DNA from: a virus
DNA: 64,000 nt
Direction: 5' to 3' (one strand)
IMG/VR virus record: IMGVR_UViG_3300009167_000007
Location: 1-64,000 of that record
Within the stretch, counting starts at the first letter, position 1, and each line of letters opens with the position of its first letter. Below, one piece after another: positions 7,501 through 56,896 of this stretch. Under the pieces are notes generated by a model. It was not told where the DNA came from. It did no database searches and saw nothing but the letters and a program-made list of their open reading frames with translations. The position numbers and the translations under genes were made by a program.

Positions 7501-10500
7501 GCTGACCTGACGAAGCGTTACACTGAAGTCCGGGAGTTCTACGATACCATCATCCCGGTCATCTACCGCGACCTGAACCGCCTGGAGAATGAACTCGGAA
7601 TGGAATACGGTATTGGCGGTGCCCAGTGGTCAGCATATCACGGTGTCGGTTACTTCGTTCCTCCCGACAAGAACGCCAAGGAATGGGATTTCGGCAGTCC
7701 AACCAAGGCCAATCCGGATTACAAGAAGCTGAAGCTCGGCGACGAGTATGACGGCAAGGCTGTTCAGGAGGACATCTTCAAAATCAAGGCATGGTTGGAT
7801 GCCAATCCTGACAAGGCCGGCTCCGCGATGTACCGGCGTCTCCAGCGCCAGGCCGACCGTCTGACGCGGGTCCATGCCGATCAGGCTGACTATCACATTC
7901 GCCGTGGTCCGCTGGGCTGGATCATCGGACTGCTCGGGGACATCGCGACCAAGCTGGATTGGACCGGAATGGCCCACTGCCGGAACATCGCGGTCATGTG
8001 CCGTGACTACAACGCGAAGCACGACCGCTTGATCCGCGACAAGTACCAGCGGGAGTTTCTGGAATACGACAAGTTGAAGCGGGAAGTCAGGCAGGCCATC
8101 GGCATCACGAACCTGGAGGATTTCAACGTCCGCTTCTACGACCGGGCTCTCAACTACCTGGAGATGCGCCAGGATTTGATCGATCCCAAGTTGACTCCAC
8201 AACAGCAGAACAGGGTATCAGCCAAGGCGGCCATCGAATGGCTGGCTGACGGGCGTGAACCCATTGCCAAGAAACCCGAGGTGCGCGACGGATTGCAGGC
8301 ATTCTTCGAGAAGGCATTCGAGTGCAGCGACATCACAGTGCGGAAGAAGATGCCCGCCGTCGGACTCAGGATCGCCGAGTCCATTGGCAAGAACCGCTAC
8401 GTCTTTCGCGATCCCGTGGGTGCCACACCGCACGCCATGAGTCGTGGACTCAGCGGTCTGGCGTTTCGGGTGGTCACCGACGACATGGTAAAGGCCGGCT
8501 GGAAGAAGCCCATTGCGCCGGACATGCCCGGATTCGAGAATCAGTCATCGCTTCGTGGCGAGCTGGTCGAATCCCTGTATTCCAAGGACCGGGCGCGACT
8601 CCAGGCCATTGTCAAGGAGCGGTTCCCGGACACCGTGGTTCGGGACTTCGCCGGGGAGCTTTGCTACAAGGAGGGAACCTCGAACTTCTTTGGAGTCAAG
8701 GAGGAGAGCGGTCGTCTGGACAAGGCCGAACGAGCCAATGTCATCGCTGCTTTCGACGAGGCAGTCGCAAATCATAATGGCGACATGCTCTGGTTCACAG
8801 AAAGACTCTATACGCTTGAAGGAGGAAATAATGCCGACGCCGTGGCCAAGGCTGAATTCGTCGCGCAGACGCTGGGCACATTCCAGAAATACTACGGCAT
8901 CATCTACGCGACGACGGAGCTGGTGAAGTCCAGCCAGCTCGATGAAAGTGACACCATGGGGCGCTCGTTCATGGATGCCCGCGAAGGGGAGGATTTCCCC
9001 GCCGCCTGGTTGAGCTACCTTCACTATGGCGAGAAGGAGAACGTGCGCTATGGCCGCATGATGGCCCAGCAATCGGCCTTTGGGCGAGACTCCGAATCCT
9101 TGGTCAACTCGTTCAATGCCGCCAAGGCGCAGCTCAGGAACATGATCGACAAGTCCGACAGGGCAAAGATGGATTCGACCAGTGAAGCCGAGCGTATCCG
9201 TCTTCTGGGTGGCAAGGAACAGGCCAAGATCATCGATGCTGCTCGCGACAATCTGGTGCGGGTGGAGACCCTGGAAAGGGACTTGAAGAATCTCCTGAAG
9301 ACCCAGAACGGCGTACCGCAGGACCTTCGCGCCGGGATGAAGTTGCTCGGCCTGATCGCGGGCTACACCGTGCAGGGTGCTTCAACCGCATTCACGGATA
9401 CGATCTCGATGGTGGACTCGCCCTTGCGCAAGTTTGGATTCTCGAAGCTTTCGCGGGACATGGTCTTCGGGAACTACAAGGGATTCGTCAACGAAGTCTG
9501 GGCGACGCTGATGCAGGCTTTCGGCATGAGCATCCACGTCAACAAGGAGTACGCCGACCAGACACGCCTGCTGAATGAATCGGGGTTGCTGGACCCGGAC
9601 GCCATGGTGAACGAAACATGGATCAAGTCCTACGCCGTGCGCTTCAAGGAATTCCTGGGTGACGAACAAACCTTCGCAGGATTGTGGCAGGAGTACCAGC
9701 GCACGCAGAAGGCGGCTGGAACTGGAAGCGCGGTTTCGGGGATGTCCAAGGGAGCCCTGCGCAAGCTCACCGCCACGGCGGCTGCCGGGATGCGCGCCGG
9801 GCTGGATGTCGGCATTGGCAGGGCCAAGTCGATGGAAGTGGCCGCCGCCACCTTCAAGCCATGGGCAATCTTCACGCAGATCAATTTGTGGATGCACCGT
9901 GCCGTTGCCCGCTCCTGGCACAACACCATTTGCGAGGCGGCGCGCATGGCCGGCGTCTTCATGAAGGCGAACCCGGCCGCTGCCACCGATCCGTCATTCA
10001 AGCTCACGGCCAAGGACATGGAGATGGTCAGCTCCAGGCTGGGAGGGTTCTCGACGAACGATCAGTTCAATGCGCTCAACGAGTTGCTCCAGAAGAACGG
10101 CATCCAGTTGGAGGAGTGCGGTCGCCGGCTGGCGCTCGGACTTGAGCCGTTCACGAAGGAACAGGAGATGTCGATCATGTCGCTGGCCCAGAGCGAAATC
10201 CTGAACAACACCGGCATTCTGACCAGGCCAGCGTGGTCGCTGAACAGTCCGATTGGGAGGATGAGTTCCCCGCTCGTCGGCTGGTCGATCTACCGCATGG
10301 CGGATGTCGCGAAATCCTTGCGCGATCCAAAGGGGCGGGCCACGGCTGATGCGTTCCGCCAATCTCTCCTTGTGTGGAGTCTGGGCGTCCTTCCCGCAGC
10401 GCTGACCTATGCCCTACTGCGTGACTGGTACGAGGAGGAGATCGTCGGGAAGAAGCCCAATGTGCTGGCACTCAAGGCCGACGCGAGCCTGCCGTGGGCG

Positions 10501-11325
10501 CTGCTCGACAACCTGAACCGGGTCGGAACGCTGGGCATCGCAGGAGATGCCACTTCCAGCATCTTCCAGGTTTCCACCCAGCGGGAATTCTCGGTGGACA
10601 GCCGCGTGTTCGCGCTCAACTCCATGATGAATCTAGCCAGGACACTCGGAGCCGCCGTTCAACAGGGCGGAACGACGACCTGGGCCTCAACGTGGCGGCA
10701 GGTGGCAACATCTCTCGGAGGTTCGGGGTATCTCCAGAACTTCGATGCGGTGAACAACCTGCTGGAGATGTCCCCCACGGAGCGACGCATCATCCGGCGC
10801 ATCAACGTCAACAACCAGCTTCGCGCTGCGGGACGGGCGCTGGAACTCGACGTGGCAGTTCCCCGGGGAATCAAGGCCATCCCCAATCCGATGAAGCCAT
10901 GGATCAGGCAGATGGAACTGGCAGCCTACGGCGATGACATGGCTGGTTTCCGTGATGCCTATGCCAAGGCCCGTGAAGCAGCCACGAACATGGCCAAGAA
11001 GAAGAAGGACTATCAGGCCGATCCCGTTGCCGACGTGGCTGAGGCGTTGCAGCGAATCCACCCGCTCAGGAACGTCTTCGGAAAGTCTCCGAGCACAGCC
11101 GAGTATCAGCGGTTGCTCCGTGAACTCGGGAACGATGCCCCTGAAGTGGCAAAGGCCATCCGCAACTTCAACTCGTACGCTGCCCAGATTCCGTCCAAGC
11201 GTGGCGGAGAAGGCATCAAGCCGTTCTACGGGACCGAGCGGAAGAAGCCGTCTGGCATTACGACAAGCTTCGGTGGTTCGGGGTTCGGGTCCATGGGATT
11301 CAGGGGAATCACTGCATCACCCTGA
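1579..11325 (+). CDS. Giant polyvalent phage protein with zincin motif, putative ejection protein
   Basis: This gene encodes 3,248 residues. The start is an ATG with GAGGTG just upstream, one base after the preceding stop. In order: an N-terminal globular part; a Gly/Ala-rich amphipathic stretch near residues 150-215, typical of membrane-active segments; a Pro/Ala/Glu linker around 340-575; a second Gly-rich linker around 1085-1145; a HEFVH zinc-metallopeptidase signature at about 1428-1432; long helical regions; and a hydrophobic segment near 2931-2950. Such multi-domain giants are known in phages as polyvalent proteins injected with DNA to protect it or modify the host. Virion RNA polymerase activity cannot be assigned, because I see no T7-type polymerase motif. 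The final TGA lies inside the palindrome at 11319-11334. Two other genes are nested out of frame in its linkers. Confidence 0.85.
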   Translation: MPNQLVNFFRTKFPDQANLPEDEITLKYADAAPIYAQQGQNLEELYPDWAADVKRIRDEKTWSTISTGEKLKHAAGALGSSVVRTAGEIGVEFPATALSALTGEYFRPDIPARKAVEAAAEYVRPEIDKEKEAVLRQSFMLEDVPSGLGSMGVYGAGGAGLGAIGKAAGVAKTAAGAARLGTAVSGFASGFSQGFNDATSRGADFETAFKSGVLNAGVGLSEAVPIARFVERLSGIAPSAKQTLVRALLETSKETFEEGFQEFGQSAAADTIAAEILKYDPDRKMFDTLARESGAGAVTGALVSALTQAISRGRRRRAPGAVEKDATIPLEDAKEIIGKEKAPPGPPPPTGIRGETPPPPPATEAEVAAQEEAEALKTEVAAQQYNIDEKGLNDLVARRVSGGEDSVAVEVSKLEPDARRLYEGKLVEALKVVSEKPEPKPEPGTPVTATTVTIPAVEATKVETPAVEATKVTTEPEPAVPTTTGAPNAIPVEGAATIPVQPGAGPGQAVGQEVRGAEEPAAVGQEAPAQEEGKVTPAPDTAAAGAATAATAPPATEAPAPEAPAPEPAPEVAKQDANQKRIGEKIAELHTTNTGEDSREFVAGQAAGMTDLSRRYAGMEAVLRSAIQRVDTAMQTMPDKPVDLLTADEVIALGELDDTKTGATQAAGVKELLAHKKAKTLNRGLLISWANRVRGESISADNRLRRLSEKSGTIDPRGKEPLTPDQLVNPYAINYNPQKKGDTPPPAGYFELNGSGGEAATNALLEYERAATDEAREAAARKLGDELLVGSRVGANRKLTKRLVAWQSPDGSVSVLAGKDQSQPRSEGKKATANQAWRFTIGSTDRTKKGDIEGGNVGIDTLLKAGYRPIASMAMMTPRVTVAVRFADRAAYNEAIGTEARTQQSEANETQARFVADFAANKAAATSAPAEAAAIGGESPALQAWAEANVMGKPTGAAGMESVESEAPTPSEVAAAKEERKKSKAERSEEEMKALVQRAGEWIGNHMDVASQLIRYFDANPKATFADAVNAFFGKLVTEKLAQSGTSKRDQDALAAHIEELYRKIYDNEKAFNNFRAEVRRVINDEIRLEAPTGKVVEGKPGGLWQNAPGGGRGGGVPGQGAQAGTEEAAPGQAGAGGEGAGVESPKAFAEASRKATEFVRGQARENMLTREEADAAIEKIDNAESIEQLNEIVGSIRIDESRAALIASINSTVELVESHVESETFTREQADSIITQVRAAKTLDHVELLTNAISIRAEKIKEENQSHDDEEPDQDEDDSRPDYSRSLVDTPQNIRRNISRAAARDSKQATAARGVRGVMSLKAAQKLLETPTVALKWAASFFRSSDRGGGEAQARVADLLASMVELTGVTIRVVDDPTLARTVVVNPETGETRDEAVHGRYNSSENEVLINLAHQQDGYSMAQTVTHEFVHGLLSRLIRRFHTDRNSLTPAQIRVIEQLELISLQAEQSGIRWQDMNSSAAKRLNEFVAAAMTDSGFQVKLNQTMGRFRVSAIPQLKVTKPERLSLWQSFKRAVASLIASEQMKLIGITKLLASAGITRESLRNEEQREAVVQRNLLEPALEALEFLIIGYNGQTAYLDADFSMQMKMPQKRGNAANKANEDEDISYMVVEGQFKNKHDISVETSTTGIAVAEARRTMATVNDVDDAIQSWMRAWNTLGKGVATASDFMKGIVSEIVGTSLRSTEQARLAIHDAVGTALAPQVSNATSIADLPDGERQKAMRDSYIIKKKFESRLRKHNRVAESFLRDTENAAKLTELQKDEAESLRAYDDLRTTKRFLLRDMRRALEGKEDTGAIAIGTALKLGNPNADTRDALRAMQGNIDQSVNSIVALANTGVDFSQVGKSGGPTIVDVQNAVTTSTDPDLNMLATDPAKLAVAIMFARNRPLLMDLLSTLKAGQERGLLNDIIKLAVEDRPDAFDRAVASLSKLTRLGAQGQRVLQNLRKSRARTKEFADLTKRYTEVREFYDTIIPVIYRDLNRLENELGMEYGIGGAQWSAYHGVGYFVPPDKNAKEWDFGSPTKANPDYKKLKLGDEYDGKAVQEDIFKIKAWLDANPDKAGSAMYRRLQRQADRLTRVHADQADYHIRRGPLGWIIGLLGDIATKLDWTGMAHCRNIAVMCRDYNAKHDRLIRDKYQREFLEYDKLKREVRQAIGITNLEDFNVRFYDRALNYLEMRQDLIDPKLTPQQQNRVSAKAAIEWLADGREPIAKKPEVRDGLQAFFEKAFECSDITVRKKMPAVGLRIAESIGKNRYVFRDPVGATPHAMSRGLSGLAFRVVTDDMVKAGWKKPIAPDMPGFENQSSLRGELVESLYSKDRARLQAIVKERFPDTVVRDFAGELCYKEGTSNFFGVKEESGRLDKAERANVIAAFDEAVANHNGDMLWFTERLYTLEGGNNADAVAKAEFVAQTLGTFQKYYGIIYATTELVKSSQLDESDTMGRSFMDAREGEDFPAAWLSYLHYGEKENVRYGRMMAQQSAFGRDSESLVNSFNAAKAQLRNMIDKSDRAKMDSTSEAERIRLLGGKEQAKIIDAARDNLVRVETLERDLKNLLKTQNGVPQDLRAGMKLLGLIAGYTVQGASTAFTDTISMVDSPLRKFGFSKLSRDMVFGNYKGFVNEVWATLMQAFGMSIHVNKEYADQTRLLNESGLLDPDAMVNETWIKSYAVRFKEFLGDEQTFAGLWQEYQRTQKAAGTGSAVSGMSKGALRKLTATAAAGMRAGLDVGIGRAKSMEVAAATFKPWAIFTQINLWMHRAVARSWHNTICEAARMAGVFMKANPAAATDPSFKLTAKDMEMVSSRLGGFSTNDQFNALNELLQKNGIQLEECGRRLALGLEPFTKEQEMSIMSLAQSEILNNTGILTRPAWSLNSPIGRMSSPLVGWSIYRMADVAKSLRDPKGRATADAFRQSLLVWSLGVLPAALTYALLRDWYEEEIVGKKPNVLALKADASLPWALLDNLNRVGTLGIAGDATSSIFQVSTQREFSVDSRVFALNSMMNLARTLGAAVQQGGTTTWASTWRQVATSLGGSGYLQNFDAVNNLLEMSPTERRIIRRINVNNQLRAAGRALELDVAVPRGIKAIPNPMKPWIRQMELAAYGDDMAGFRDAYAKAREAATNMAKKKKDYQADPVADVAEALQRIHPLRNVFGKSPSTAEYQRLLRELGNDAPEVAKAIRNFNSYAAQIPSKRGGEGIKPFYGTERKKPSGITTSFGGSGFGSMGFRGITASP
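3041..3184 (+). CDS. Small basic phage protein nested out of frame in the giant gene
   Basis: This is a 47-residue ORF in another frame of the giant gene. ATG 3041 is preceded by GGAG at 3031-3034, six bases upstream, an ideal ribosome binding site. The product begins MPFQSKAQQRYLFSQ and continues with a Lys/Arg-rich part (ALAKRWAKKY, then NLPQWVKK). I recognise this as the pattern of a short stand-alone protein seen in many phages (MPFxSKAQQRxMF...AKRWAKE...LPE). In the giant frame the same DNA gives only an Ala/Pro/Gly/Glu linker. The combination of a family match, a good ribosome binding site and a featureless host frame argues for a real overprinted gene. Its function is unknown; it is probably a virion or DNA-associated peptide. 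Confidence 0.7.
   Translation: MPFQSKAQQRYLFSQEPALAKRWAKKYGVPKNLPQWVKKHQRKKKAR
4832..5008 (+). CDS. Second candidate gene nested in the giant gene
   Basis: This is a 58-residue ORF out of frame with the giant gene. ATG 4832 has GGAGGG at 4817-4822, a strong ribosome binding site with nine-base spacing. The product has a natural composition: a polar start (MKSDSKHQLAKW), a hydrophobic helix (GKMLLVAAGVAEFLDKA) and a basic tail (RKRGQKKPRQVRPAQVAKGLA). The host frame over this stretch reads as a Gly/Ala/Gln/Glu linker. I do not recognise the family. The parallel with the nested gene at 3041-3184 strengthens the case, but chance cannot be excluded. Confidence 0.45.
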   Translation: MKSDSKHQLAKWSRESPAAFGKMLLVAAGVAEFLDKARKRGQKKPRQVRPAQVAKGLA

Positions 11326-12907: not shown

Positions 12908-13993
12908 TTACCGCATATCGACCTTGGCGGCGTCCGGGTTGCGGACGTACACCTTGGTCACATCTGTGCCAGCATGCCCCAGCGCCTTCGCGATGTCAGC
13001 CAGGGAAGCGCCCGCATTGGCCATCGTCGTGGCGTATGTGGCGCGCAGGGAGTGGAACGAGTATCCTTCCAGCCCGATGGATTTCAGGAACCTTCCGAAC
13101 GCCACGGATATTCCAGCGCGACGGTTCACATCATTGATGATGCTGTGCTCATTCGGGAACAGGTATCTTTCTCCGGATGATTTGAGTGCGAGCAGGGTAT
13201 CAATCACGCGCTTGGTCAGCGGTATCTCAACTCTCGATCCTCCCTTGGATGTCCAGACAACTGCCACGCATTTTGCGGTATCGAACGATGCCCACTCCAG
13301 GTTGCAGATGTCGCCCAGCCGCAGCGCCAGGTCCCGGCCAAGGATGATGGCTGCCCGGAAGAACCCGGGTGTCAGATACGCGGGCTCGGCACCGCCGGAC
13401 TTGCCCAGCATGTACTCAATCTCGGCATCGGTGAACGTGTTCTTGTGCCTGGGTTCAAGTTGGGCATGGCTGAGCAGCCGGTGATTGACGCACACCAGCC
13501 GCGAAGGATCGGACAGGATGATCCGCTTGGTCAGGCACCAGGAGAACAGCTTGCGGATGGCGGCAAGTCGCAGGGCGCGGGTGCCGCGTTTGATGGTCAC
13601 CTTGGTGTCGTTGACGTAACCGTTGATGTCCGCTTCCGTGATGGAGCCGATGGGCTGGTCTTTAAGTCCAGAATCCTTGAGCCACTTTCTCAGGATCATC
13701 ACGGTGTTCGTGTGCGTTCTCATCGACAACGCCACCGTAGTCAGCCACTTGTCCAGATCCTCCACCGCCTGGCTGCACGTCGTGTTCCGGTCGGTGACAA
13801 TCAGCGAGACCACCTCGTTGGTCAGCTTGAGCTTCTGCCCCATTTCCTCCAGCGTTTCGACACGGGCCTGCTTGAGCATTTCCTCCGCTTCCCGCTGGTC
13901 GGTGGTGTTTAGGTTTATCGTGTGGACTTGCCCACTTTCCGACGTAACGGACACCCAGTAGTTTGAGTCGTTTTCTTTCTTGAATAGCTTCAC
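12908..13993 (-). CDS. int: Tyrosine recombinase / phage integrase
   Basis: This gene encodes 361 residues from GTG 13993, which has AGAGGAG upstream. The C-terminal catalytic domain shows the expected order: first Arg in RDLALRLGD (~residue 217), Lys in TSKGGSR, HxxR in FHSLRATYAT (~312), His in KALGHAG, and the nucleophilic Tyr in TKVYVR (~347). The N-terminal part has a SAM-like core-binding domain (residues ~70-170). It implies site-specific integration or dimer resolution, so a temperate or phage-plasmid lifestyle is possible. No clear attP is visible: both flanks are coding to within 20 bases. The upstream ORF runs into this gene in another frame. Confidence 0.9.
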   Translation of the reverse strand: MKLFKKENDSNYWVSVTSESGQVHTINLNTTDQREAEEMLKQARVETLEEMGQKLKLTNEVVSLIVTDRNTTCSQAVEDLDKWLTTVALSMRTHTNTVMILRKWLKDSGLKDQPIGSITEADINGYVNDTKVTIKRGTRALRLAAIRKLFSWCLTKRIILSDPSRLVCVNHRLLSHAQLEPRHKNTFTDAEIEYMLGKSGGAEPAYLTPGFFRAAIILGRDLALRLGDICNLEWASFDTAKCVAVVWTSKGGSRVEIPLTKRVIDTLLALKSSGERYLFPNEHSIINDVNRRAGISVAFGRFLKSIGLEGYSFHSLRATYATTMANAGASLADIAKALGHAGTDVTKVYVRNPDAAKVDMR

Positions 13994-47810: not shown

Positions 47811-49463
47811 TTACGATGCTCCAGCGTCATCCGCCTGCTTGAACAGGGCGACGATGACCTGGGAATTCGCCAGCATGCGGTTGACGTGTTCGGGTGGCAG
47901 CGACGCGAAGGAGCTGGACTGGTTGTCGGTGGGAAGCCAGCCGCAGTCGATGACGAGCTGCTTGTAGTCGGCGAAGGTCTTGCCGCAGTCCGTGACGACC
48001 CGGTGAAGCGCCATGGCCTGGCTATCGGGAGGCGTGGAAGCCGCCGAAGGTGCCGGCTTGGGAGGCGTGGAAGCCGCCGAAGGTGCCACCCTGGGAGGCT
48101 TCGGGGTGAACTCCGAGGAAATCCATGCCCGAAGGTTTGCGTGCTTCGCGATGGCAATCCGGCAGACATGGTCGCTGAGGTCCTGAACCCCTTGCGTTTC
48201 GGAAAAGTCCAGCGATCCGAACTCGGTCTGGGCGGAGAACCAGTCACGTACCATTTCCCACGTCATCATTGGGAACTCGCGTCCCAGATTGTTTATGACC
48301 GCTTCAAAGTTCTGCTGCGTTTCACTCAGAGCGGCTTGAGGCGTGCTTTGGGGCTCCGAAGGTGCCTGGACAGCCGGAGGCGGTTCAGGACTAGCCTGCG
48401 GGGCTGCTGGAGCCGGCGGAGCCAGCTTTGGCGGACGACCGCGGCGCTTCGGAGCCGCGAACGGGTCTGCGGGGGTAGCTTCGCCGGTCACTGGTACGGA
48501 TCGCGGATTCGGAACCGGGTTCAATTCGGGGTTCGATTGGTCAGCCAGGGCTTGTGCCAGCGGGGACACTGGAGCGCCGGCTGGAGCCTGTACTTTCGGA
48601 GGGGGAGGCTGGAGCATCTCAGTAGCTGCATCCGATGCAGTTGATTCAGAGGCGATTCTGGCTCGCTGTACCTGGATGGAACCGATGTCGATGGTCTTCC
48701 CTTGCTCAAACTCCTCGTCGTCGTTGAGCACATCCCGAAGTTCAGCCGATTGCGGGATGATCTTGCACAGCGCCCGGATGGCTGATTTTGACCACATCGC
48801 CGCCGTGTGGGTGTTCCAGATTGAGTCCGGCTCAGAGGCTCCACGCGAGAACGCCCTGATTTTGTTGATGTCCTTGTTGTACAGCACCTTGGACACAGTC
48901 TCCCCGGACTTCATCTTGCAGACGGCGTACACGGCGACGACCGGACCGGCGTCATCCTCACCCACGTAGCGCTCGTGCTCGATGTTCGGGTGAAGCCCAA
49001 GGGTATGCCGGAAGGTGTCCTTCGCGAACACCGGCTCGACCCAGACCGCCCCGACGTTGGGATGGTTGTAGCACAGGTCCAGAAGTCCTTGGTAACCAGG
49101 CAGGAACTGGGCCTGCATCTTGTACGTCCCGTCCGGCTGCTTGCAGTTGAACGGCACCAGGTGAGCCTGGCGACCATCCACTTCGAGTCCCCGGGCTGCC
49201 GACTTGAGCAGCGACTCAATGACGGAGAGCTTACCCTCTGGAGTCGTGAAGCACTGCTGGAGTTTTGGGCTTCGGAGGGCTGCCGTCATAGCGACCCGGG
49301 CGAATCGTTCCGGGCTGATGTGCTTGGCGCAGGCCAGACGGAGTTGTTCGAGGATGTTCGGGCTCGTCAGGAAGCTCTTGACGAGTTCCATGGGCTTTGG
49401 AGCGCCCTGTTGGGCTACTGGAAGTGCGGTATTCATGTGGTTTTGTGTCGTAACTACCGTCAA
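47811..49463 (-). CDS. recT: RecT-family single-strand annealing protein with long C-terminal extension
   Basis: This gene encodes 550 residues from ATG 49463 (ATG 49436 also possible). Residues ~15-260 are RecT: KSFLTSPNILEQLRLACAKH, AALRSPKLQQCF, SVIESLLKSAARGLEVDGRQ, AQFLPGYQGLLDLCY and WNTHTAAMWSKSAIRAL. The remainder, about 290 residues, is unusual: Pro/Ala/Gln-rich linkers (including APSAASTPP repeats) around two short helical domains. RecT anneals ssDNA made by the exonuclease downstream. The extension may tether partners. Confidence 0.9.
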   Translation of the reverse strand: MTVVTTQNHMNTALPVAQQGAPKPMELVKSFLTSPNILEQLRLACAKHISPERFARVAMTAALRSPKLQQCFTTPEGKLSVIESLLKSAARGLEVDGRQAHLVPFNCKQPDGTYKMQAQFLPGYQGLLDLCYNHPNVGAVWVEPVFAKDTFRHTLGLHPNIEHERYVGEDDAGPVVAVYAVCKMKSGETVSKVLYNKDINKIRAFSRGASEPDSIWNTHTAAMWSKSAIRALCKIIPQSAELRDVLNDDEEFEQGKTIDIGSIQVQRARIASESTASDAATEMLQPPPPKVQAPAGAPVSPLAQALADQSNPELNPVPNPRSVPVTGEATPADPFAAPKRRGRPPKLAPPAPAAPQASPEPPPAVQAPSEPQSTPQAALSETQQNFEAVINNLGREFPMMTWEMVRDWFSAQTEFGSLDFSETQGVQDLSDHVCRIAIAKHANLRAWISSEFTPKPPRVAPSAASTPPKPAPSAASTPPDSQAMALHRVVTDCGKTFADYKQLVIDCGWLPTDNQSSSFASLPPEHVNRMLANSQVIVALFKQADDAGAS

Positions 49464-50183: not shown

Positions 50184-50459
50184 ATGACAACCTCTTTCAC
50201 CTCGCTGTCTCCGGCAACCATTGCTGCGGCGAATGTCAGCCGGCGCAATCTGGTCATCGAGATGGCGTCCGACGGACCGATTCTGTACGTCCTGCTTCAC
50301 GACACCTGCAATCCCGATGCCGTCGTTAGCACGACCAACTACAGCTTCACGATGCGGAACCTGGATTACTGGGAGTCCCCGTTGAACTTCGTCGGGAAGG
50401 TCAGCGGATTCCTGGATTCAGCAGGAAACGCCCTGGTCACCGAAATCACCTCGTGCTGA
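50184..50459 (+). CDS. Small virion-type protein
   Basis: This gene encodes 91 residues from ATG 50184 (a GTG at 50175 adds three). No Shine-Dalgarno is seen; a leaderless transcript is possible. ANVSRRNLVIEMASDGPILY, then NYSFTMRNLDYWESP and GKVSGFLDSAGNALVTEI match small beta-sandwich proteins encoded near phage structural genes, which share the aNxsRkgLxIqN and YWExP...GkVsgxwdsA patterns. It is probably a decoration or tail-spike accessory protein. Confidence 0.6.
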   Translation: MTTSFTSLSPATIAAANVSRRNLVIEMASDGPILYVLLHDTCNPDAVVSTTNYSFTMRNLDYWESPLNFVGKVSGFLDSAGNALVTEITSC

Positions 50460-50472
50460 AAGGAGAATCACC

Positions 50473-50745
50473 ATGCCCATGTATCGAAATCCGGTTGGCG
50501 GCGGAACATCCGGGGGTATCCCGGAGGCACCGACCGACGGTAGCATCTATGCGCGGCGCGGATCGGACGCCACCTGGAGGAACCTGGAAGTCGTTGCCAC
50601 CCCGCCATCATCAGCCGATCCCAATGGTCAGATTCTCGGCTTCGCCAAGGGGCAGACTTACGCGCAGACGGATACGTCACTCACCTACAAGATTCGCGAC
50701 TGGACCTTCAACGGAACTCCTGGAACAACCACTGGCTGGATTTGA
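50473..50745 (+). CDS. Small fiber-like protein
   Basis: This gene encodes 90 residues with ribosome binding site AAAGGAG before the ATG. IPEAPTDGSIYARRGSDATW is a motif repeated twice in the next protein (APLGTSLYARSNANW and APPDGQTYGRRGSDASW). A Pro/Gly-rich tail follows. It is probably a virion surface or fiber component. Confidence 0.55.
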   Translation: MPMYRNPVGGGTSGGIPEAPTDGSIYARRGSDATWRNLEVVATPPSSADPNGQILGFAKGQTYAQTDTSLTYKIRDWTFNGTPGTTTGWI

Positions 50746-50747
50746 AC

Positions 50748-52388
50748 ATGAAAACGAAACTCCTGCTCCTCGCGACCTGGCTTGCTTCCATGGCGGCTGT
50801 GGCGCAATCCCCCATCGGAAGCTACTCCATGAGCCTGTGGGCGCACACCAACCTGAACGTCAACCGGGCGCTGGAAACCGGAGAAATTGGGCGGGCGATT
50901 GGCTACATCTCCAACGGGATCGTTTCCACCATCACCATCCCGAGCACCAACGGGTTCATCGGCGATGCACCGCTGGGCACCAGTCTCTATGCGCGCAGCA
51001 ATGCGAATTGGCAGGTGTTCACCATCCCAAGCACCAACGGGTTCATCCCCGAAGCCCCGCCTGACGGTCAGACCTACGGACGCCGTGGCTCGGACGCCTC
51101 GTGGCAACTCATGCCGGGGGGCTCCGACACCAACGCCGTCGCTGCCGTGGCCGACCTGGCGACGCTCACCAACAGCGTGGTGAATCGCACAAAGGCTTTG
51201 GTCGGAAAGACTGACGATGCGACCTGGACGGCCTGGCAACTCGTTCCGTCGGGTGGCGGCAGTCCGGCGCAAACCTTCACCAATCTCAGCACCGCTGGAG
51301 GAGATTGGGATGAAGGATTTGGTTCTTGTCTCGCGAGTGGTCAGAACTTTCAAACCAATATCACCTGGCGTGTGACAGTTCAAGATTGCAACTGTCCGAC
51401 AGTTTACAATCTAATCGCATCTGAATTTGGTGCCAGCTATCAATTTGATGGCTACATCTTCAGGGCGGTCAATTCAGCCCCGGCTGCTTTGGTGGAAGCA
51501 CCAAACACATCCGGGTTCACACTCCTTGCTGGAAGCACGAACATTGTGGAATCAACTCGGCAATATATTCGTTTCCAATTCGTTGCCTTGGCGACCAATG
51601 CGCTGTCGGTCGCCGTAAGACGCGGCGCAGCGACTGGCGGATTGAATGATTACACCATAAACGATGTTTCGTTTACCAAGCTGGCCGTCACTGGTTATGA
51701 ACCCAACGGCAGCAACATTCTCGCTTCCGCAGCGATTCCAGGATACGCCTGGAAAAAGGTCTATACTGAATCGCAGGGAGGCAGTGTCACGGAGGCGCTG
51801 GTGATGGTGGCGGATTCGACGGCGGTGTTCCCGACCAACACCAAGTATGTGCGCTTTCAGGCACCGACGGGACTTTCCATAACCCTGACGAACAACAATG
51901 TCATCCCCGATGGTTCGGCAGACTTCACCAGCTTCTTCCTTTACGATACCTACTACGGAGATTTGGGGAGCGTGCGCATCCCGCAAGATACCAACGGAAC
52001 GGACGGTGTGGGCTCCAATGTGAAGATGGCCGAGGGCACTGGGGATGTTGTCATGGTGCCACGCACATTCTACACTTATCGGTTCGACTCGGCGCAAAGC
52101 CTGTGGATCTTGGGAGCCGAGAACAATCTCGTGGCGCAGGATCTTCCCGCTGATGTGAAGGACTCGTTGATCGTGCAGCTTCTCCCCTGGGCGCTGACCA
52201 ACTACGCCCGGCTGTTTCCGCACGGCCCGATGGTCGGGACACCGGCCAACCCCATCTCACTGCCCGACATTGGTCCGCGACCGATGGGCGGTCGGGACAT
52301 TTACGCACCCGCACCGCTGGCTCCGCGATCCAGCCCGGTGTACAACGTCGAGATCAACGTCGGACCTCAAAACGAGCCAACACCATGA
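50748..52388 (+). CDS. Exported fiber-like protein with repeated DGxxYxRR modules
   Basis: This gene encodes 546 residues from ATG 50748. The first 21 residues (MKTKLLLLATWLASMAAVAQ) are a clear Sec signal peptide, unusual for a virion protein. Two copies of an APxDGxxYxRxxxxxW module follow (residues ~60-125), then beta-rich domains: one with a galactose-binding or sandwich-like look (QNFQTNITWRVTVQD), and one resembling a virion head/tail fiber domain (FPTNTKYVRFQAPTGLSITL). It may be a secreted phage adhesin or host-surface protein rather than a particle component. Confidence 0.6.
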   Translation: MKTKLLLLATWLASMAAVAQSPIGSYSMSLWAHTNLNVNRALETGEIGRAIGYISNGIVSTITIPSTNGFIGDAPLGTSLYARSNANWQVFTIPSTNGFIPEAPPDGQTYGRRGSDASWQLMPGGSDTNAVAAVADLATLTNSVVNRTKALVGKTDDATWTAWQLVPSGGGSPAQTFTNLSTAGGDWDEGFGSCLASGQNFQTNITWRVTVQDCNCPTVYNLIASEFGASYQFDGYIFRAVNSAPAALVEAPNTSGFTLLAGSTNIVESTRQYIRFQFVALATNALSVAVRRGAATGGLNDYTINDVSFTKLAVTGYEPNGSNILASAAIPGYAWKKVYTESQGGSVTEALVMVADSTAVFPTNTKYVRFQAPTGLSITLTNNNVIPDGSADFTSFFLYDTYYGDLGSVRIPQDTNGTDGVGSNVKMAEGTGDVVMVPRTFYTYRFDSAQSLWILGAENNLVAQDLPADVKDSLIVQLLPWALTNYARLFPHGPMVGTPANPISLPDIGPRPMGGRDIYAPAPLAPRSSPVYNVEINVGPQNEPTP

Positions 52389-52846
52389 AGCACCTCATCC
52401 GCATCACGCTCCTCACCCTGCTCATGCTGCAAGCCTGGTCGCAGATCATTCTGCTGCCAGGCGATGACGCCTACCTCGATCCCGTCGAGGGGTCTGGGCA
52501 GGGTTACGTCCACATCTACGACACGTTCCCAGCGCCGCTGGACGGTTCGATCATCATCCTGTCCGCCGTCCGGGACGGTCGTGGGTACGTCCACAACCTG
52601 TTCGGCGACGCCATGGCGATGGAGCTGGACTGGGGCTTCCCCGTCCACGGAAAATCACCCTACGGCCTGGAGATGGACACCTGGTATTACCTGCGCGGGA
52701 CCGATGCGACCGGGGCCACAGCGTTGCGCACGGAGCCGTTCCTCATGGACGGCCCGAGCATCAATCCGCTGATTCCTGAGCCGAAGGACTTCGCCCTCCT
52801 CTGCGCCATCGGCCTCATCCTTTTCGCAGCAACCAAACACCTATGA
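52385..52846 (+). CDS. Exported protein with PEP-CTERM-like tail
   Basis: This gene encodes 153 residues. The signal peptide is MKHLIRITLLTLLMLQAWSQ. The body has GQGYVHIYDTFPAPLDGSII and RGYVHNLFGDAMAMELDWG, a beta module also seen in the 53451-54416 product (GGQGYVLSGNTVV). It ends with IPEPKDFALLCAIGLI, a hydrophobic helix and a basic end, close to the PEP-CTERM exosortase tripartite tail. It is predicted to be anchored or sorted at the host envelope. Overlaps of 4 bases join it to both neighbours. Confidence 0.6.
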   Translation: MKHLIRITLLTLLMLQAWSQIILLPGDDAYLDPVEGSGQGYVHIYDTFPAPLDGSIIILSAVRDGRGYVHNLFGDAMAMELDWGFPVHGKSPYGLEMDTWYYLRGTDATGATALRTEPFLMDGPSINPLIPEPKDFALLCAIGLILFAATKHL

Positions 52847-53454
52847 TCACCAGCAACCAGCCTCCCGCAATACCGACTGAAACACAGGCCGGCGGGTTCA
52901 GCTTCGTCGTCGAAGTGCAACCCGACTGGAACCTGCTCGGATGCAACCTCGAAACGACGAACAACTTCCTGGCCGAACTCATCCCGACTGCGCCGGAAGA
53001 CTCGATGCTCTACCTCTACCGGCGGGAGGAAGGATTCGCGATCATCAGCTTCCTCGACGGCCAATGGTCCGAACCCGAGACGACCATCACTCCCGGCACC
53101 GGGTTCTGGTTCCGCTCGCCTGTCCACACGTGGCTGGAGTTCAGAGGCGAAGTCGTCACCGGGACCAACACCGTGACGCTGGCGAGGGATTACAACCTCG
53201 TGGCCTGCCCCGTGACACGCTCGGGCAATGTCTCATCGGAACTCGGATTCGAGCCCGACGACGGCGACATGATCTACCAGTACGTGCCGAAGGTGCCCGA
53301 CGACCCGGCCTATCCCGGCTACTACGTCACGAGCACCTTCGACGGCATCTGGCTCCCCCGCCAGCCGTTCCTTGGTATCGGCAGCGGAATGTGGATCAGG
53401 CGACAAAAGGTCGGCTCATGGACAGCGAACACGACTCCGATTTCCGGACGATGA
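52843..53454 (+). CDS. Surface protein with two WNL-type repeats
   Basis: This gene encodes 203 residues and lacks its own signal peptide. Two repeats of about 85 residues are seen: QPDWNLLGCNLETTNNFLAE ... DSMLYLYRREEGFAI ... ITPGTGFWFRS, and DYNLVACPVTRSGNVSSELG ... DDGDMIYQYV ... FLGIGSGMWIRRQ. This W-N-L ... P-x-D-G ... F-D-G-x-W ... G-x-G-x-W-I module is abundant in secreted proteins of Verrucomicrobia and relatives. Being coupled between two exported proteins, it probably works with them. Confidence 0.6.
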   Translation: MITSNQPPAIPTETQAGGFSFVVEVQPDWNLLGCNLETTNNFLAELIPTAPEDSMLYLYRREEGFAIISFLDGQWSEPETTITPGTGFWFRSPVHTWLEFRGEVVTGTNTVTLARDYNLVACPVTRSGNVSSELGFEPDDGDMIYQYVPKVPDDPAYPGYYVTSTFDGIWLPRQPFLGIGSGMWIRRQKVGSWTANTTPISGR

Positions 53455-54416
53455 TGCGCACCATCCAATTCGGTGTCAGCGCGATGGCGTGCGCCGCCCT
53501 TGCGCTGAGCGCGGATTACGGGCTGTGGCCCGACGGGATTCTTGACGTACCGACCGTTCAAGGCGCGGGGCTGGCGACGGTAGCCTACGACGCCGACGTC
53601 GACACGTCACACTTCTGGCTCATCGGCGATATTCAGGGAGGTCAGGGTTACGTGCTCTCCGGCAATACCGTCGTCAGCCTGCTTGCGCTCAACACCGGGA
53701 ACTCCGGACCGCGATACATCCGGTTCTTCGGAGAGTCCATTTTGGCTCCCAACGTCCATTACCGTCTGGGCACAAGCCAGACCAAGGTTGGACCTGGGGC
53801 GTCAATCGTCGACCCAATCTTCCTCTCTGGATCGTTCTGGATCAAGACGAGCACTGACGGAAAGCGGACCTTGATGACCGGACTGGATTTTGGCATCGAG
53901 GTACAGGCCGGCTGGAATGTTCTGGCTCCGCCGCTGGACACGGACGGTGGAACCCTGGCTGACGTGATTCCGGTGGCGCAGGACGGCACCATGGCCTACT
54001 TCTCGGACAGCGCTCTCGGATTCAGGGTATCAACATTCGATTCCGGCGAGTGGCTTCCCGACGGCAAAACCCCTCTGGTCCCGGGAACCGGCGTCATCAT
54101 CCGGGTGCGCGAGACAGGATGGCTGACATTCACCGGGACCGTCATTCGCGAGCCGCGAACCGTGAGGATTGCCAGCGGATGGAACCTCGTGGGGTGTTCG
54201 TCCGGACGCCAGGGGTTGCTCCAGACAGAACTCGGTTATGCGCCAGTTCCCGGTGATACCGTGATGGACCAGGTAGCTGGAGGATCAGGGTTTCACGCGT
54301 ACACCTGGGATGGAAACACGTGGGTTCCAGAGGAACCGCTCATCCTTTCAGGTCATGGCTACTGGATTCAGAGACGTGGTGACCCAGTGGACTGGACGCC
54401 GCCGCCAATTCCGTGA
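53451..54416 (+). CDS. Exported protein with WNL repeats
   Basis: This gene encodes 321 residues. ATG 53451 overlaps the preceding stop by 4 bases, and MMRTIQFGVSAMACAALALS is a signal peptide, which fixes this start over longer frames. Residues ~30-120 carry the GGQGYVLSGNTVVSLL module shared with the 52385 product. Then come two WNL repeats: EVQAGWNVLAPPLDTDGGTL ... DGTMAYFSDSALGF ... PGTGVIIRVRE and RIASGWNLVGCSSGRQGLLQ ... GDTVMDQVAG ... LSGHGYWIQRRG. It is predicted to be periplasmic or outer-surface. No catalytic motif is visible. Confidence 0.65.
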   Translation: MMRTIQFGVSAMACAALALSADYGLWPDGILDVPTVQGAGLATVAYDADVDTSHFWLIGDIQGGQGYVLSGNTVVSLLALNTGNSGPRYIRFFGESILAPNVHYRLGTSQTKVGPGASIVDPIFLSGSFWIKTSTDGKRTLMTGLDFGIEVQAGWNVLAPPLDTDGGTLADVIPVAQDGTMAYFSDSALGFRVSTFDSGEWLPDGKTPLVPGTGVIIRVRETGWLTFTGTVIREPRTVRIASGWNLVGCSSGRQGLLQTELGYAPVPGDTVMDQVAGGSGFHAYTWDGNTWVPEEPLILSGHGYWIQRRGDPVDWTPPPIP

Positions 54417-54574
54417 AACGACCCCTGACATGGTGTGCTACGGTGGTGGCTTTTCTGGCGCTCATCTTCCTGATTCTGGGGTGCGCGTTCAGGACGAATC
54501 AGTCTTTCGGCTGGGATGTGTTTGGCAAGTATCACAGCACGCACCAGACCAATGCGGTGAAGCCACACAAATGA
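54413..54574 (+). CDS. Small lipoprotein
   Basis: This gene encodes 53 residues from GTG 54413, whose GTGA overlaps the preceding stop. The sequence KRPLTWCATVVAFLALIFL runs into LILGC, a lipobox with Cys at about residue 25, then a 28-residue polar part (AFRTNQSFGWDVFGKYHSTH). It is a predicted lipoprotein of the outer membrane or periplasm. Phage lipoproteins of this size act as o-spanins or receptor-blocking superinfection-exclusion proteins; its place in the exported cluster favours the latter, without proof. Confidence 0.6.
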   Translation: MKRPLTWCATVVAFLALIFLILGCAFRTNQSFGWDVFGKYHSTHQTNAVKPHK

Positions 54575-54575
54575 T

Positions 54576-54604
54576 TTGACGTAGCGGCGGGGCGGGTGCA
54601 TCGT
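54576..54604 (+). promoter_or_regulatory. Candidate promoter for the PEP-CTERM gene
   Basis: TTGACG (54576-54581), a 17-base spacer, then CATCGT (54599-54604), followed by a leader of about 35 bases to the ATG at 54644. The -10 box is weak, but the -35 and spacing match the candidates at 50147 and 56907. Confidence 0.35.
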
Positions 54605-54643
54605 GTCTTCACTCGACCGGATGACCCGGGAGTGAACAACCGT

Positions 54644-55273
54644 ATGAACAAACACATCACCGCACTCGTTTCTGCATCCGCACTCGCCCTTCTGTCTGTT
54701 TCCACCTCCGCCGCCCTGTTTGGTAATCCCAGCGTGGCGATCTACCCCCCGGCCACTCCGGCTGTCCTGGGACCCTTGGTCACAACCCTCAGTTCGTCCG
54801 TCGTGGACGACAACGGCAACTTCGCTGCCACTTTGACGACCGCCGTCCACTCGGGCGGTTCCAACCCGCTGGGCGGGCTCACCTTCGTTTACACGCTCAG
54901 CAACGACCTGCTGCCTCCCAGCAACCGAGATGACGTGTACGCCTTCTCCGTCACCTGGAATCCGGCTTGGATTCCTGCTGTGATTGATGTGGATACCGCC
55001 GCGGGTGCCGGCGTCGTTCCCTTCAGCTTCGGCTTTGGACCCAACGGAGTCGTCTTCGCCTTCAACTTCGTCTCCTTGGTGGCTGGGGCGACTTCCGTGC
55101 CAATCGCCGTGGGCACTGCCGCTCCATTGTGGACCACCAGCAATGCAGGCATCATCAACGGGACCACGGAGGATGCGGTGGCGCTGGTGCCCGTGCCTGA
55201 GCCGTCCACCTTCGCCGGCTTGTTCGCCCTGGGCCTTGCCGGGTTTGCCGCTTTCCGACGTTTTCGGTGCTGA
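54644..55273 (+). CDS. PEP-CTERM sorted exported protein
   Basis: This gene encodes 209 residues from ATG 54644 (GGGAG upstream); the frame extends further 5' but without a signal peptide at its start. The signal peptide is MNKHITALVSASALALLSVS. The body is a beta-sandwich-like domain rich in Ser, Thr, Val and Gly. The C-terminus is a textbook PEP-CTERM tail: VPVPEPSTFAGLFALGLAGF then AAFRRFRC (PEP motif, hydrophobic helix, Arg cluster). In hosts with exosortase (EpsH/XrtA) this tail is cut and the protein reaches the surface. In a phage it would borrow the host system. Confidence 0.85.
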   Translation: MNKHITALVSASALALLSVSTSAALFGNPSVAIYPPATPAVLGPLVTTLSSSVVDDNGNFAATLTTAVHSGGSNPLGGLTFVYTLSNDLLPPSNRDDVYAFSVTWNPAWIPAVIDVDTAAGAGVVPFSFGFGPNGVVFAFNFVSLVAGATSVPIAVGTAAPLWTTSNAGIINGTTEDAVALVPVPEPSTFAGLFALGLAGFAAFRRFRC

Positions 55274-55296: not shown

Positions 55297-55337
55297 CGCC
55301 CCGGCGGGGTTCGTCTCCTCCGGGGCGGTTTTGTTTT
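55297..55337 (+). terminator. Rho-independent terminator
   Basis: The stem CGCCCCGG (55297-55304) and CCGGGGCG (55320-55327) is followed by TTTTGTTTT (55329-55337). It ends the plus-strand exported-protein operon directly against the 3' end of the convergent terminase gene. Confidence 0.85.
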
Positions 55338-56896
55338 CAGCCCCCACCGACGATGATCAGACTCGGTGCCTGGCTCTCGTAGCTGCTGGAATTCCATCCA
55401 CGCATCTCGCACTCCAGCAACGGGTAGGACAGCGAGTCGAAGACGTGGATGTGTCCCGCCACGGTCTTCTTCGGAGCCAGCGCATCTTCCTTCTTGGATT
55501 CCAGCATCAGGAGCATGTCCTTCGTCGCCGGGCACATGGCGCTGACCAGGAGCGCGTCACTGGCGAGAAGACCCTGAACCAGCCGGACACGAGTCCCGAC
55601 GCTGCCAGCACCCTTGGGGCACCCGCGCATGCGCATCTGGGGAATCTTGTGGACCAGGGAAGCCTTGTTGAACTCCTTCTCGAATTCCCACGCGTCCAGT
55701 GATCCCGAGCCTCCCGGACGCCACTGGTTCAGAGCCGAATCGTCCGTGACGTGCTCCCATGCAATGTTCCGGCCCATGAACTTGTTCCAGTCCAGAATCC
55801 GCTCCACGATTTCCACGGCCATGTTCTTGTAGAGAATCTGCTCGCGCAGGTGGACCACCTCGTCGAACACCACCCAGACGTTTCCGGTTTCAGACGGAAC
55901 CAACTGGAGGAACGTGGCGGAGCTGAACCGCTGTCCAAGGTCATACCCCACGAAGCACGGCAAGCCAGCCATTGGCGTCAGTCCGGTTCCCGCCAGCGCA
56001 TCCCCGATGACGTGCCGGTCCGGGACAAAGTGCATCCGGAACAGCGCCTCACCGGTCGGGCGCTCAACCCACTTCCCTTCGATGAGCCGGGCGCGCTCGA
56101 TGGGGTCGTTCCGCACCGCACGCTCCAGCGTCTCCAGGTATCGCGCCATTTCCGGTCGGTGGGCGTTCTCGGAGAACGGGATGTGGTAGTTGGCGAAGTG
56201 CTTGTCCATCGCCCCGGTTTCCTTGTCCACGGATTCCTCGAAGAAGACCTGGTACACCCAGTTGGACGGCCCTTTCGGGTTGCAGGTGGCGACGTACTGC
56301 TGCGGTCCCTGGATGTGCCGGCGGCGGTTCATTTGACCCGTGATGGTCGTGAAGTATCCGCGCCCTTCGCAGTCCGTCAGCTCATCCGCCAGCACAAAGG
56401 ACGGGTGGACGCCCTTGATGCGCCCGGGGATCGCCTCCTCGTAGGGTATCGAAATCTGAAGGATCGTGGACCAGCCGCCGTGACGGTTCCCGATCTTGAG
56501 CACCCGGTCCTTCGTCTGGGCATCGAGCTTTGATGGCAGCCAGTCAAGGGAAATGCCGTCTGTCCAGGCCGGAAGAACCAGCGTCTCCAGGTCGTGGACG
56601 CAGCCGAACTTCCCGGTGCGGATGGACGGCGTGATGATGACCCCGAGGGCATCCCATTCCTCGTAGCAATGCCGGATCAGCTTGTGCTCGGCTGCGATGC
56701 TTTTCCCGGTGCCCTTCTCCGACGCAATCAGGATGAACGGGGTTGGATCATGGAAGATCAGGCGCTGGGTTTTGCTCAGGTCCGGCTCCCAACCGCCAAT
56801 TTCCTCAGCCTTGTGCGGTGGCCTGGGCGGCTCAAAGTCCAGCATTTCGGCAGCAGCTACAGCAGCAAGCTCGTCGGAAGTCAGTGTTGTGGTCAT
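55337..56896 (-). CDS. terL: Terminase large subunit
   Basis: This gene encodes 519 residues, the normal length. The ATPase domain has LIASEKGTGKSIAAEHKLIR (Walker A ~residue 53), FVLADELTD (Walker B ~165) and VATCNPKGPSNWVYQ (motif III). The C-terminal nuclease has CFVGYDLGQRFSSATF (first Asp) and VTDDSALNQW (later acidic residues). It drives DNA packaging and cuts genome ends. It is the only minus-strand gene between two plus-strand structural blocks, so it has its own transcript or inverted history. Confidence 0.9.
   Translation of the reverse strand: MTTTLTSDELAAVAAAEMLDFEPPRPPHKAEEIGGWEPDLSKTQRLIFHDPTPFILIASEKGTGKSIAAEHKLIRHCYEEWDALGVIITPSIRTGKFGCVHDLETLVLPAWTDGISLDWLPSKLDAQTKDRVLKIGNRHGGWSTILQISIPYEEAIPGRIKGVHPSFVLADELTDCEGRGYFTTITGQMNRRRHIQGPQQYVATCNPKGPSNWVYQVFFEESVDKETGAMDKHFANYHIPFSENAHRPEMARYLETLERAVRNDPIERARLIEGKWVERPTGEALFRMHFVPDRHVIGDALAGTGLTPMAGLPCFVGYDLGQRFSSATFLQLVPSETGNVWVVFDEVVHLREQILYKNMAVEIVERILDWNKFMGRNIAWEHVTDDSALNQWRPGGSGSLDAWEFEKEFNKASLVHKIPQMRMRGCPKGAGSVGTRVRLVQGLLASDALLVSAMCPATKDMLLMLESKKEDALAPKKTVAGHIHVFDSLSYPLLECEMRGWNSSSYESQAPSLIIVGGG

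Follow-up and report, generated by a model that had tools for sequence, protein, structure and literature searches.

Why would a phage carry, between a recombinase gene and a terminase gene, a run of genes whose products appear bound for the envelope of its host? The question is raised by IMG/VR virus record IMGVR_UViG_3300009167_000007, of which positions 1 to 64,000 (the window) were analysed; the window is part of a record of 70,125 bases with no reported end repeats. A first-pass annotation, made from the letters alone, had described a six-gene plus-strand operon from 50748 that encodes exported, PEP-CTERM and lipid-anchored proteins. The plus-strand run was confirmed, but it comprises eight genes (A to H, 50184 to 55273), starting two genes earlier than described because A and B precede C, and it lies between the recT and terL genes of an integrase-encoding phage. 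Our proposal, with a probability of roughly 0.45, is that these genes form a variable cassette directed at the host envelope, whose products remodel or mask the cell surface in the service of superinfection exclusion or lysogenic conversion. It is built on the computed gene order, the predicted signals, the PEP-CTERM tail of H, the presence of fibre repeats, the homology of E and F, and the gene pairing and exosortase co-occurrence of the family to which E and F belong. The features are as follows (aa, amino acids; AF2, AlphaFold2).

50184 to 50459, plus strand: gene A, 91 aa, a small protein that looks virion-like by eye, no signal peptide (gene call; homologues of 88 aa at other places in relatives G018 and G006)
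50473 to 50745, plus strand: gene B, 90 aa, a fibre repeat (EAPTDGSIYARRGSDATW) and a C-terminal module in common with the phage's own connector/phosphatase protein at 64208 to 66106 (phmmer)
50748 to 52388, plus strand: gene C, 546 aa, a signal peptide (MKTKLLLLATWLASMAAVAQ) followed by fibritin-type fibre repeats (PHROG, tblastn, signal-peptide rule)
52385 to 52846, plus strand: gene D, 153 aa, a signal peptide and a C-terminal IPEP, hydrophobic stretch and KHL, possibly a degenerate PEP-CTERM (signal-peptide rule, likeness to the H tail)
52843 to 53454, plus strand: gene E, 203 aa, a WNL-domain protein and paralogue of F, no signal peptide (homology, signal-peptide rule)
53451 to 54416, plus strand: gene F, 321 aa, a signal peptide, an extra N-terminal domain and a C-terminal WNL domain at aa 141-318, mostly beta (homology, AF2)
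54413 to 54574, plus strand: gene G, a predicted lipoprotein of 53 aa with lipobox LGC and a GTG start (lipobox rule; GTGA overlap with F)
54644 to 55273, plus strand: gene H, a 209-aa PEP-CTERM protein with a signal peptide (PF07589, TIGR02595; Verrucomicrobiota proteins matched by the tail alone)
55297 to 55328, plus strand: terminator-like hairpin with a T-run, 3' of H (fold z -1.75 against shuffled sequence, marginal)

Export signals in the operon

Consistent with the mostly four-base overlaps noted at first pass, the C-D, D-E, E-F and F-G junctions each overlap by four bases (ATGA, ATGA, ATGA and GTGA, respectively). Signal peptides were called with a simple rule of our own, which is crude and is not a dedicated predictor of the SignalP type; by this rule, type I signal peptides are present in C, D, F and H (the four previously claimed), a lipobox in G (the small lipoprotein also recognized then) and neither in A, B or E. 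By this count, 5 of the 8 operon genes have an export signal, as against 1 of 75 genes elsewhere in the 70 kb record (Fisher p = 1.1e-5); F and G are counted as exported only if they start at 53451 and 54413, respectively (the gene caller chose 53418 and 54443).

The tail of H, read at first pass as a textbook PEP-CTERM, scored above the cut-offs of both PF07589 (27.8 bits; cut-off 20.7) and TIGR02595 (24.7 bits; cut-off 16), and by these profiles H is a genuine PEP-CTERM protein. For D, described as PEP-CTERM-like, the outcome was mixed: the tail (IPEPKDFALLCAIGLILFAATKHL) resembles that of H (50% over 24 aa), but neither PF07589 nor a profile made from the tails of bacterial PEP-CTERM proteins matched it, so the label is unproven. 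Homology searches in other phages and in Verrucomicrobia, the check proposed at first pass, were similarly mixed: the family of E and F and the tail of H (and no other part of H) were found in Verrucomicrobiota, D had no match there, and F and H had none in GenBank phages. Searches of A, D, E, F and G against Pfam, NCBIfam and PHROGs returned nothing informative, G matching no family in any of the three.

A bacterial gene family in phage DNA

What are E and F? The two are paralogous (36% over 173 aa), and a WNL profile built from these two phage sequences recovered bacterial members, with E values down to 3.8e-11, while still free of bacterial sequences. This phage-only profile matched 4 of 289 Verrucomicrobiota and 0 of 299 Pseudomonadota genomes; after the first bacterial members were added, the counts were 72 of 289 versus 1 of 299 (Fisher 1.5e-23). 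The WNL-type proteins noted at first pass thus belong to a family whose bacterial members are exported proteins. At 27 of the 28 testable best bacterial loci (L139-L168, with the truncated L147 and L152 left out and L146 the exception), a PEP-CTERM gene lies directly 3' of the WNL gene on the same strand, apparently a conserved, unnamed gene pair. Exosortase is encoded in 70 of the 72 WNL-positive Verrucomicrobiota genomes versus 145 of the 217 WNL-negative ones (215 of 289 overall).

In the phage, WNL gene F, lipoprotein gene G and PEP-CTERM gene H follow one another in that order, which suggests that F and H may share their descent with the bacterial WNL / PEP-CTERM pair, although the body of H is not detectably like the bacterial partners. 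Homology of D, or of the N-terminal domain of F, to those partners was suspected by eye, and comparison gave no support. The WNL domain of F (aa 141-318) yielded a confident AF2 model; no significant fold match was found in PDB or BFVD, a negative weakened by the whole model, including its disordered N-terminal part, having been searched. A profile search of PDB sequences with WNL gave only weak matches to spike proteins (best E 0.0011); they spanned a portion of the domain and were taken as chance.

Judging by its WNL genes, the phage probably infects an exosortase-bearing Verrucomicrobiota cell. The exosortase of the host is inferred, as no host genome turned up for this phage: a first portal scan of Genome Taxonomy Database (GTDB) genomes revealed no prophages of the phage's family, a broader scan recovered seven contigs from metagenome-assembled genomes (MAGs) with conflicting labels, which leave the host to be deduced from the phage itself, and no tRNA genes were present as a host clue.

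Bacterial homologues of E and F, found among the related phages in this record only, would also be expected if a host chromosomal segment or a chimeric assembly lay within the phage contig, a possibility to which we give next to no weight. The operon is phage DNA, as the first-pass annotation had supposed: recT lies on one side and terL, portal and capsid genes on the other, and the recT-cassette-terL order is kept in a relative (L033). A host insert was ruled out by this synteny, by even G+C across the operon region and by the good scores of the operon genes under the phage's own codon usage; moreover, B is tied to a virion-type gene of the phage. The features that place the operon in its phage context are as follows.

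47811 to 49391, minus strand: RecT recombinase, left flank, phage DNA (PF03837, E 9.4e-32)
55337 to 56896, minus strand: terminase large subunit (terL), right flank, phage DNA (PHROG_2, E 8.5e-19; PF03237)
12908 to 13993, minus strand: tyrosine integrase (PF00589, E 3.7e-18)

A PD-(D/E)XK nuclease is also encoded on the left side of the operon, and to the right lie genes of portal, scaffold-like and capsid-like type (assigned through order and homology to relatives; none falls in a named family). The integrase suggests a temperate phage, and the phage is probably temperate. Its portal had no matches among 50,697 GenBank phage records and has relatives encoded in more than 100 IMG/VR loci, placing it in an uncultured phage group. 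The 70 kb record is probably incomplete, since comparison with relatives G018 and G005 indicates that a stretch between the connector-type gene and a giant protein gene seems to be missing. Three further observations concern this wider gene content. The strand of terL is opposite to that of the portal and capsid genes in the close clade of the window, and the same in more distant relatives. A 3248-aa protein (window 1579-11325) contains the HExxH-like motif VTHEFVHGLL and matches no family. At record positions 66097-69989 (L003:6097-9989), a gene run resembles glycosyltransferases by eye, together with one radical-SAM-type gene (PHROG_13987, E 8.9e-8).

Fibre repeats and exported proteins among relatives

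Are the operon products instead parts of the virion? The first-pass annotation had overlooked that C contains fibre repeats: C matched the fibritin neck whisker family PHROG_9687 (E 1.7e-4) and, by tblastn, T4-like fibritin genes (E 6e-5 over aa 63-119). Fibre repeat motifs are present in both C and B, at modest E values, and phmmer linked B to the open reading frame at 64208 to 66106 (E 1.3e-13) and to C (E about 2e-6). The middle of that connector-type protein (64208 to record position 66106; L003:4208-6106) looks metallophosphatase-like by eye, and its end contains the fibre-type module of B. No relatives of C were found in IMG/VR, and its AF2 model (pLDDT 32) gave no usable structure. With phage fibre repeats in C, some operon genes appear to descend from virion-type proteins.

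The operon might accordingly encode mainly virion parts, namely fibre or adhesin proteins that travel by way of the periplasm and join particles late or after lysis, with the signal peptides serving that route. This is the main rival of an envelope cassette, and it draws on the fibre repeats of B and C, the module that B has in common with the connector-type protein, the lack of a signal peptide on E, and two findings in relatives. First, the protein encoded immediately 3' of the capsid gene has retained a signal-peptide-like start in five relatives (24-38% identity to the first), at the following positions.

L004:7921-8526: post-capsid signal-peptide protein
L005:14338-14886: post-capsid signal-peptide protein
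L022:11926-12471: post-capsid signal-peptide protein
L024:9793-10401: post-capsid signal-peptide protein
L025:11899-12468: post-capsid signal-peptide protein

Second, two signal-peptide genes adjoin in relative L009 (9118-11873), the first of which (9118-10347, 3' of the capsid gene) matches virion structural PHROGs (E 2.9e-18) and the second, weakly, tail fibre families and a beta-helix family (the latter at E 0.0025). However, neither a PEP-CTERM tail nor a lipobox has a known role in a tailed virion, WNL is a family of bacterial exported proteins, and we know of no tailed phage that assembles exported fibres outside the cytoplasm; nothing pertinent on phages with signal-peptide tail fibres was found in the literature searched. 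On balance, we consider the virion explanation unlikely.

Exported genes also recur near the terminase of relatives, with differing content. In L033, the genes between recT and terL encode a fibre-like protein with a signal peptide (by motif, with no family match), a second signal-peptide protein, a holin-family protein (PHROG_1129, E 3.7e-8) and a lipoprotein; in L022, a signal-peptide Peptidase_S74 protein (E 1.7e-6) lies upstream of the terminase genes. Among 49 related phage records, many of them fragments, a PEP-CTERM above cut-off was found in one, namely this one, and among the phage loci fetched, again many of them fragments, the WNL domain was likewise found in this record only. Export signals are thus seen repeatedly in part of the phage group, and the exosortase element in this member alone. 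By eye, L022:1668-2237 and L005:4226-4795, upstream of terS/terL, have a signal peptide and the look of a small outer-membrane beta-barrel, which Pfam did not confirm. Extra signal-peptide calls at L020:16443-17594, L054:6609-7508 and elsewhere are doubtful, and some may be false positives of the rule.

The L033 cassette bears on a third explanation, in which the operon is a lysis cassette with G as a spanin-like lipoprotein and the remaining genes as passengers. As stated at first pass, none of these genes has a lysis motif; the same-place cassette of L033, however, combines the holin-family gene with a lipoprotein. In the window, Pfam, NCBIfam and PHROGs revealed no holin, endolysin or spanin pair (and hence no inner-membrane spanin partner) among A to H of this probably incomplete record, and the 53-aa G matches no lysis family; a lysis cassette therefore seems very improbable.

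The surface change may, alternatively, not be directed at other phages at all: captured host surface genes could alter the attachment, matrix or biofilm of the lysogen. Such conversion would fit the integrase, the bacterial type of the WNL / PEP-CTERM module and the link of the PEP-CTERM system to exopolysaccharide genes (PMC1569441). We judge it quite unlikely, in that C is fibre-derived, the E/F and PEP-CTERM elements occur in no other related record examined, and the exported genes near the terminase vary between relatives, which fits a phage-receptor conflict better.

A possible envelope cassette and its relation to known systems

How might an envelope cassette work? It occupies the interval between recT and terL here and in L033, with different exported genes upstream of terL in other relatives. 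C, D, F and H would cross the inner membrane by Sec, C as an exported protein containing phage fibre repeats, and G would be lipidated. The host exosortase could then recognize the PEP-CTERM of H (and perhaps the tail of D) and put H on the surface, F and H keeping the gene order of the Verrucomicrobiota WNL / PEP-CTERM pair. Acting together, the operon proteins would coat or alter the cell surface recognized by this same phage, during infection or in the lysogen, which would limit superinfection or adsorption to debris; the tyrosine integrase is consistent with lysogenic conversion. Host, export, sorting, surface location and effect are what we infer in this scheme: an envelope location is indicated by the predicted signals and bacterial homology, and a surface-masking purpose by the precedent of T5 Llp (PMC9586334) and by the varied sets of exported genes in the relatives. 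The roles suggested at first pass (superinfection exclusion, receptor masking and lysogenic conversion) are inseparable by sequence. That interpretation as a whole was sustained on phage DNA, the integrase, the PEP-CTERM of H and the WNL host clue, and fell short on C, whose fibre repeats it missed, and on D, whose tail was not confirmed as a sorting signal.

Several points weigh against an envelope cassette. The signal-peptide rule is crude, and E has no signal peptide; F does not directly precede H, as the gene for the 53-aa lipoprotein G intervenes; the bacterial-partner profile matches H at its C-terminus only; D, G and the H body have no homologue of known function; and related phage contigs were binned as Verrucomicrobia, Proteobacteria, Gammaproteobacteria, Deltaproteobacteria and an archaeon, although these may be misbinned.

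A more specific version of the envelope cassette, which we hold to be rather unlikely, is that a phage family of Verrucomicrobiota sends fibre-derived proteins via Sec to the host surface and that this member hijacks the exosortase with a captured WNL / PEP-CTERM module, such that the cell displays phage proteins that block or redirect adsorption. No phage that uses the exosortase route was found in the literature searched; such a phage would provide a way to learn the role of PEP-CTERM surface proteins in Verrucomicrobiota. The signal-peptide fibre-like genes of relatives raise the question of where phage fibres go, and the bacterial WNL / PEP-CTERM pairing is a lead in its own right for Verrucomicrobiota.

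How, finally, does the operon compare with known systems? As in PEP-CTERM / exosortase (EpsH) sorting (PF07589, TIGR02595, PF09721), H has a signal peptide, PEP motif, hydrophobic stretch and basic end, but its gene is on a phage, whereas the known systems are chromosomal; no report of a phage PEP-CTERM protein was found in the open-access literature searched. Like the Verrucomicrobiota WNL / PEP-CTERM pair, the phage has homologous WNL domains in E and F and a signal-peptide WNL gene (F) that precedes H on the same strand, with the differences that there are two copies of the WNL gene, that E is without a signal peptide and that the H body is not detectably similar. C and B have EAPxDGxxYxRxxxxW-type repeats, as in the T4-like fibritin neck whisker, but C starts with a Sec signal peptide and is otherwise like no known fibre. 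G recalls T5 Llp and T1/phi80 Cor in being a very small phage lipoprotein encoded 3' of a fibre-like gene, much as the T5 exclusion lipoprotein gene llp adjoins the receptor-binding protein gene pb5 on its downstream side (PMC9586334). Llp and Cor have an intramolecular disulphide in common (PMC9586334), whereas G matches no family, has neither sequence similarity to Llp or Cor nor their conserved disulphide, and in mature form has the lipidated cysteine as its sole one. Envelope-modifying phage proteins are already known; a PEP-CTERM protein encoded by a phage next to a WNL module of bacterial type adds a novel variant to that kind.

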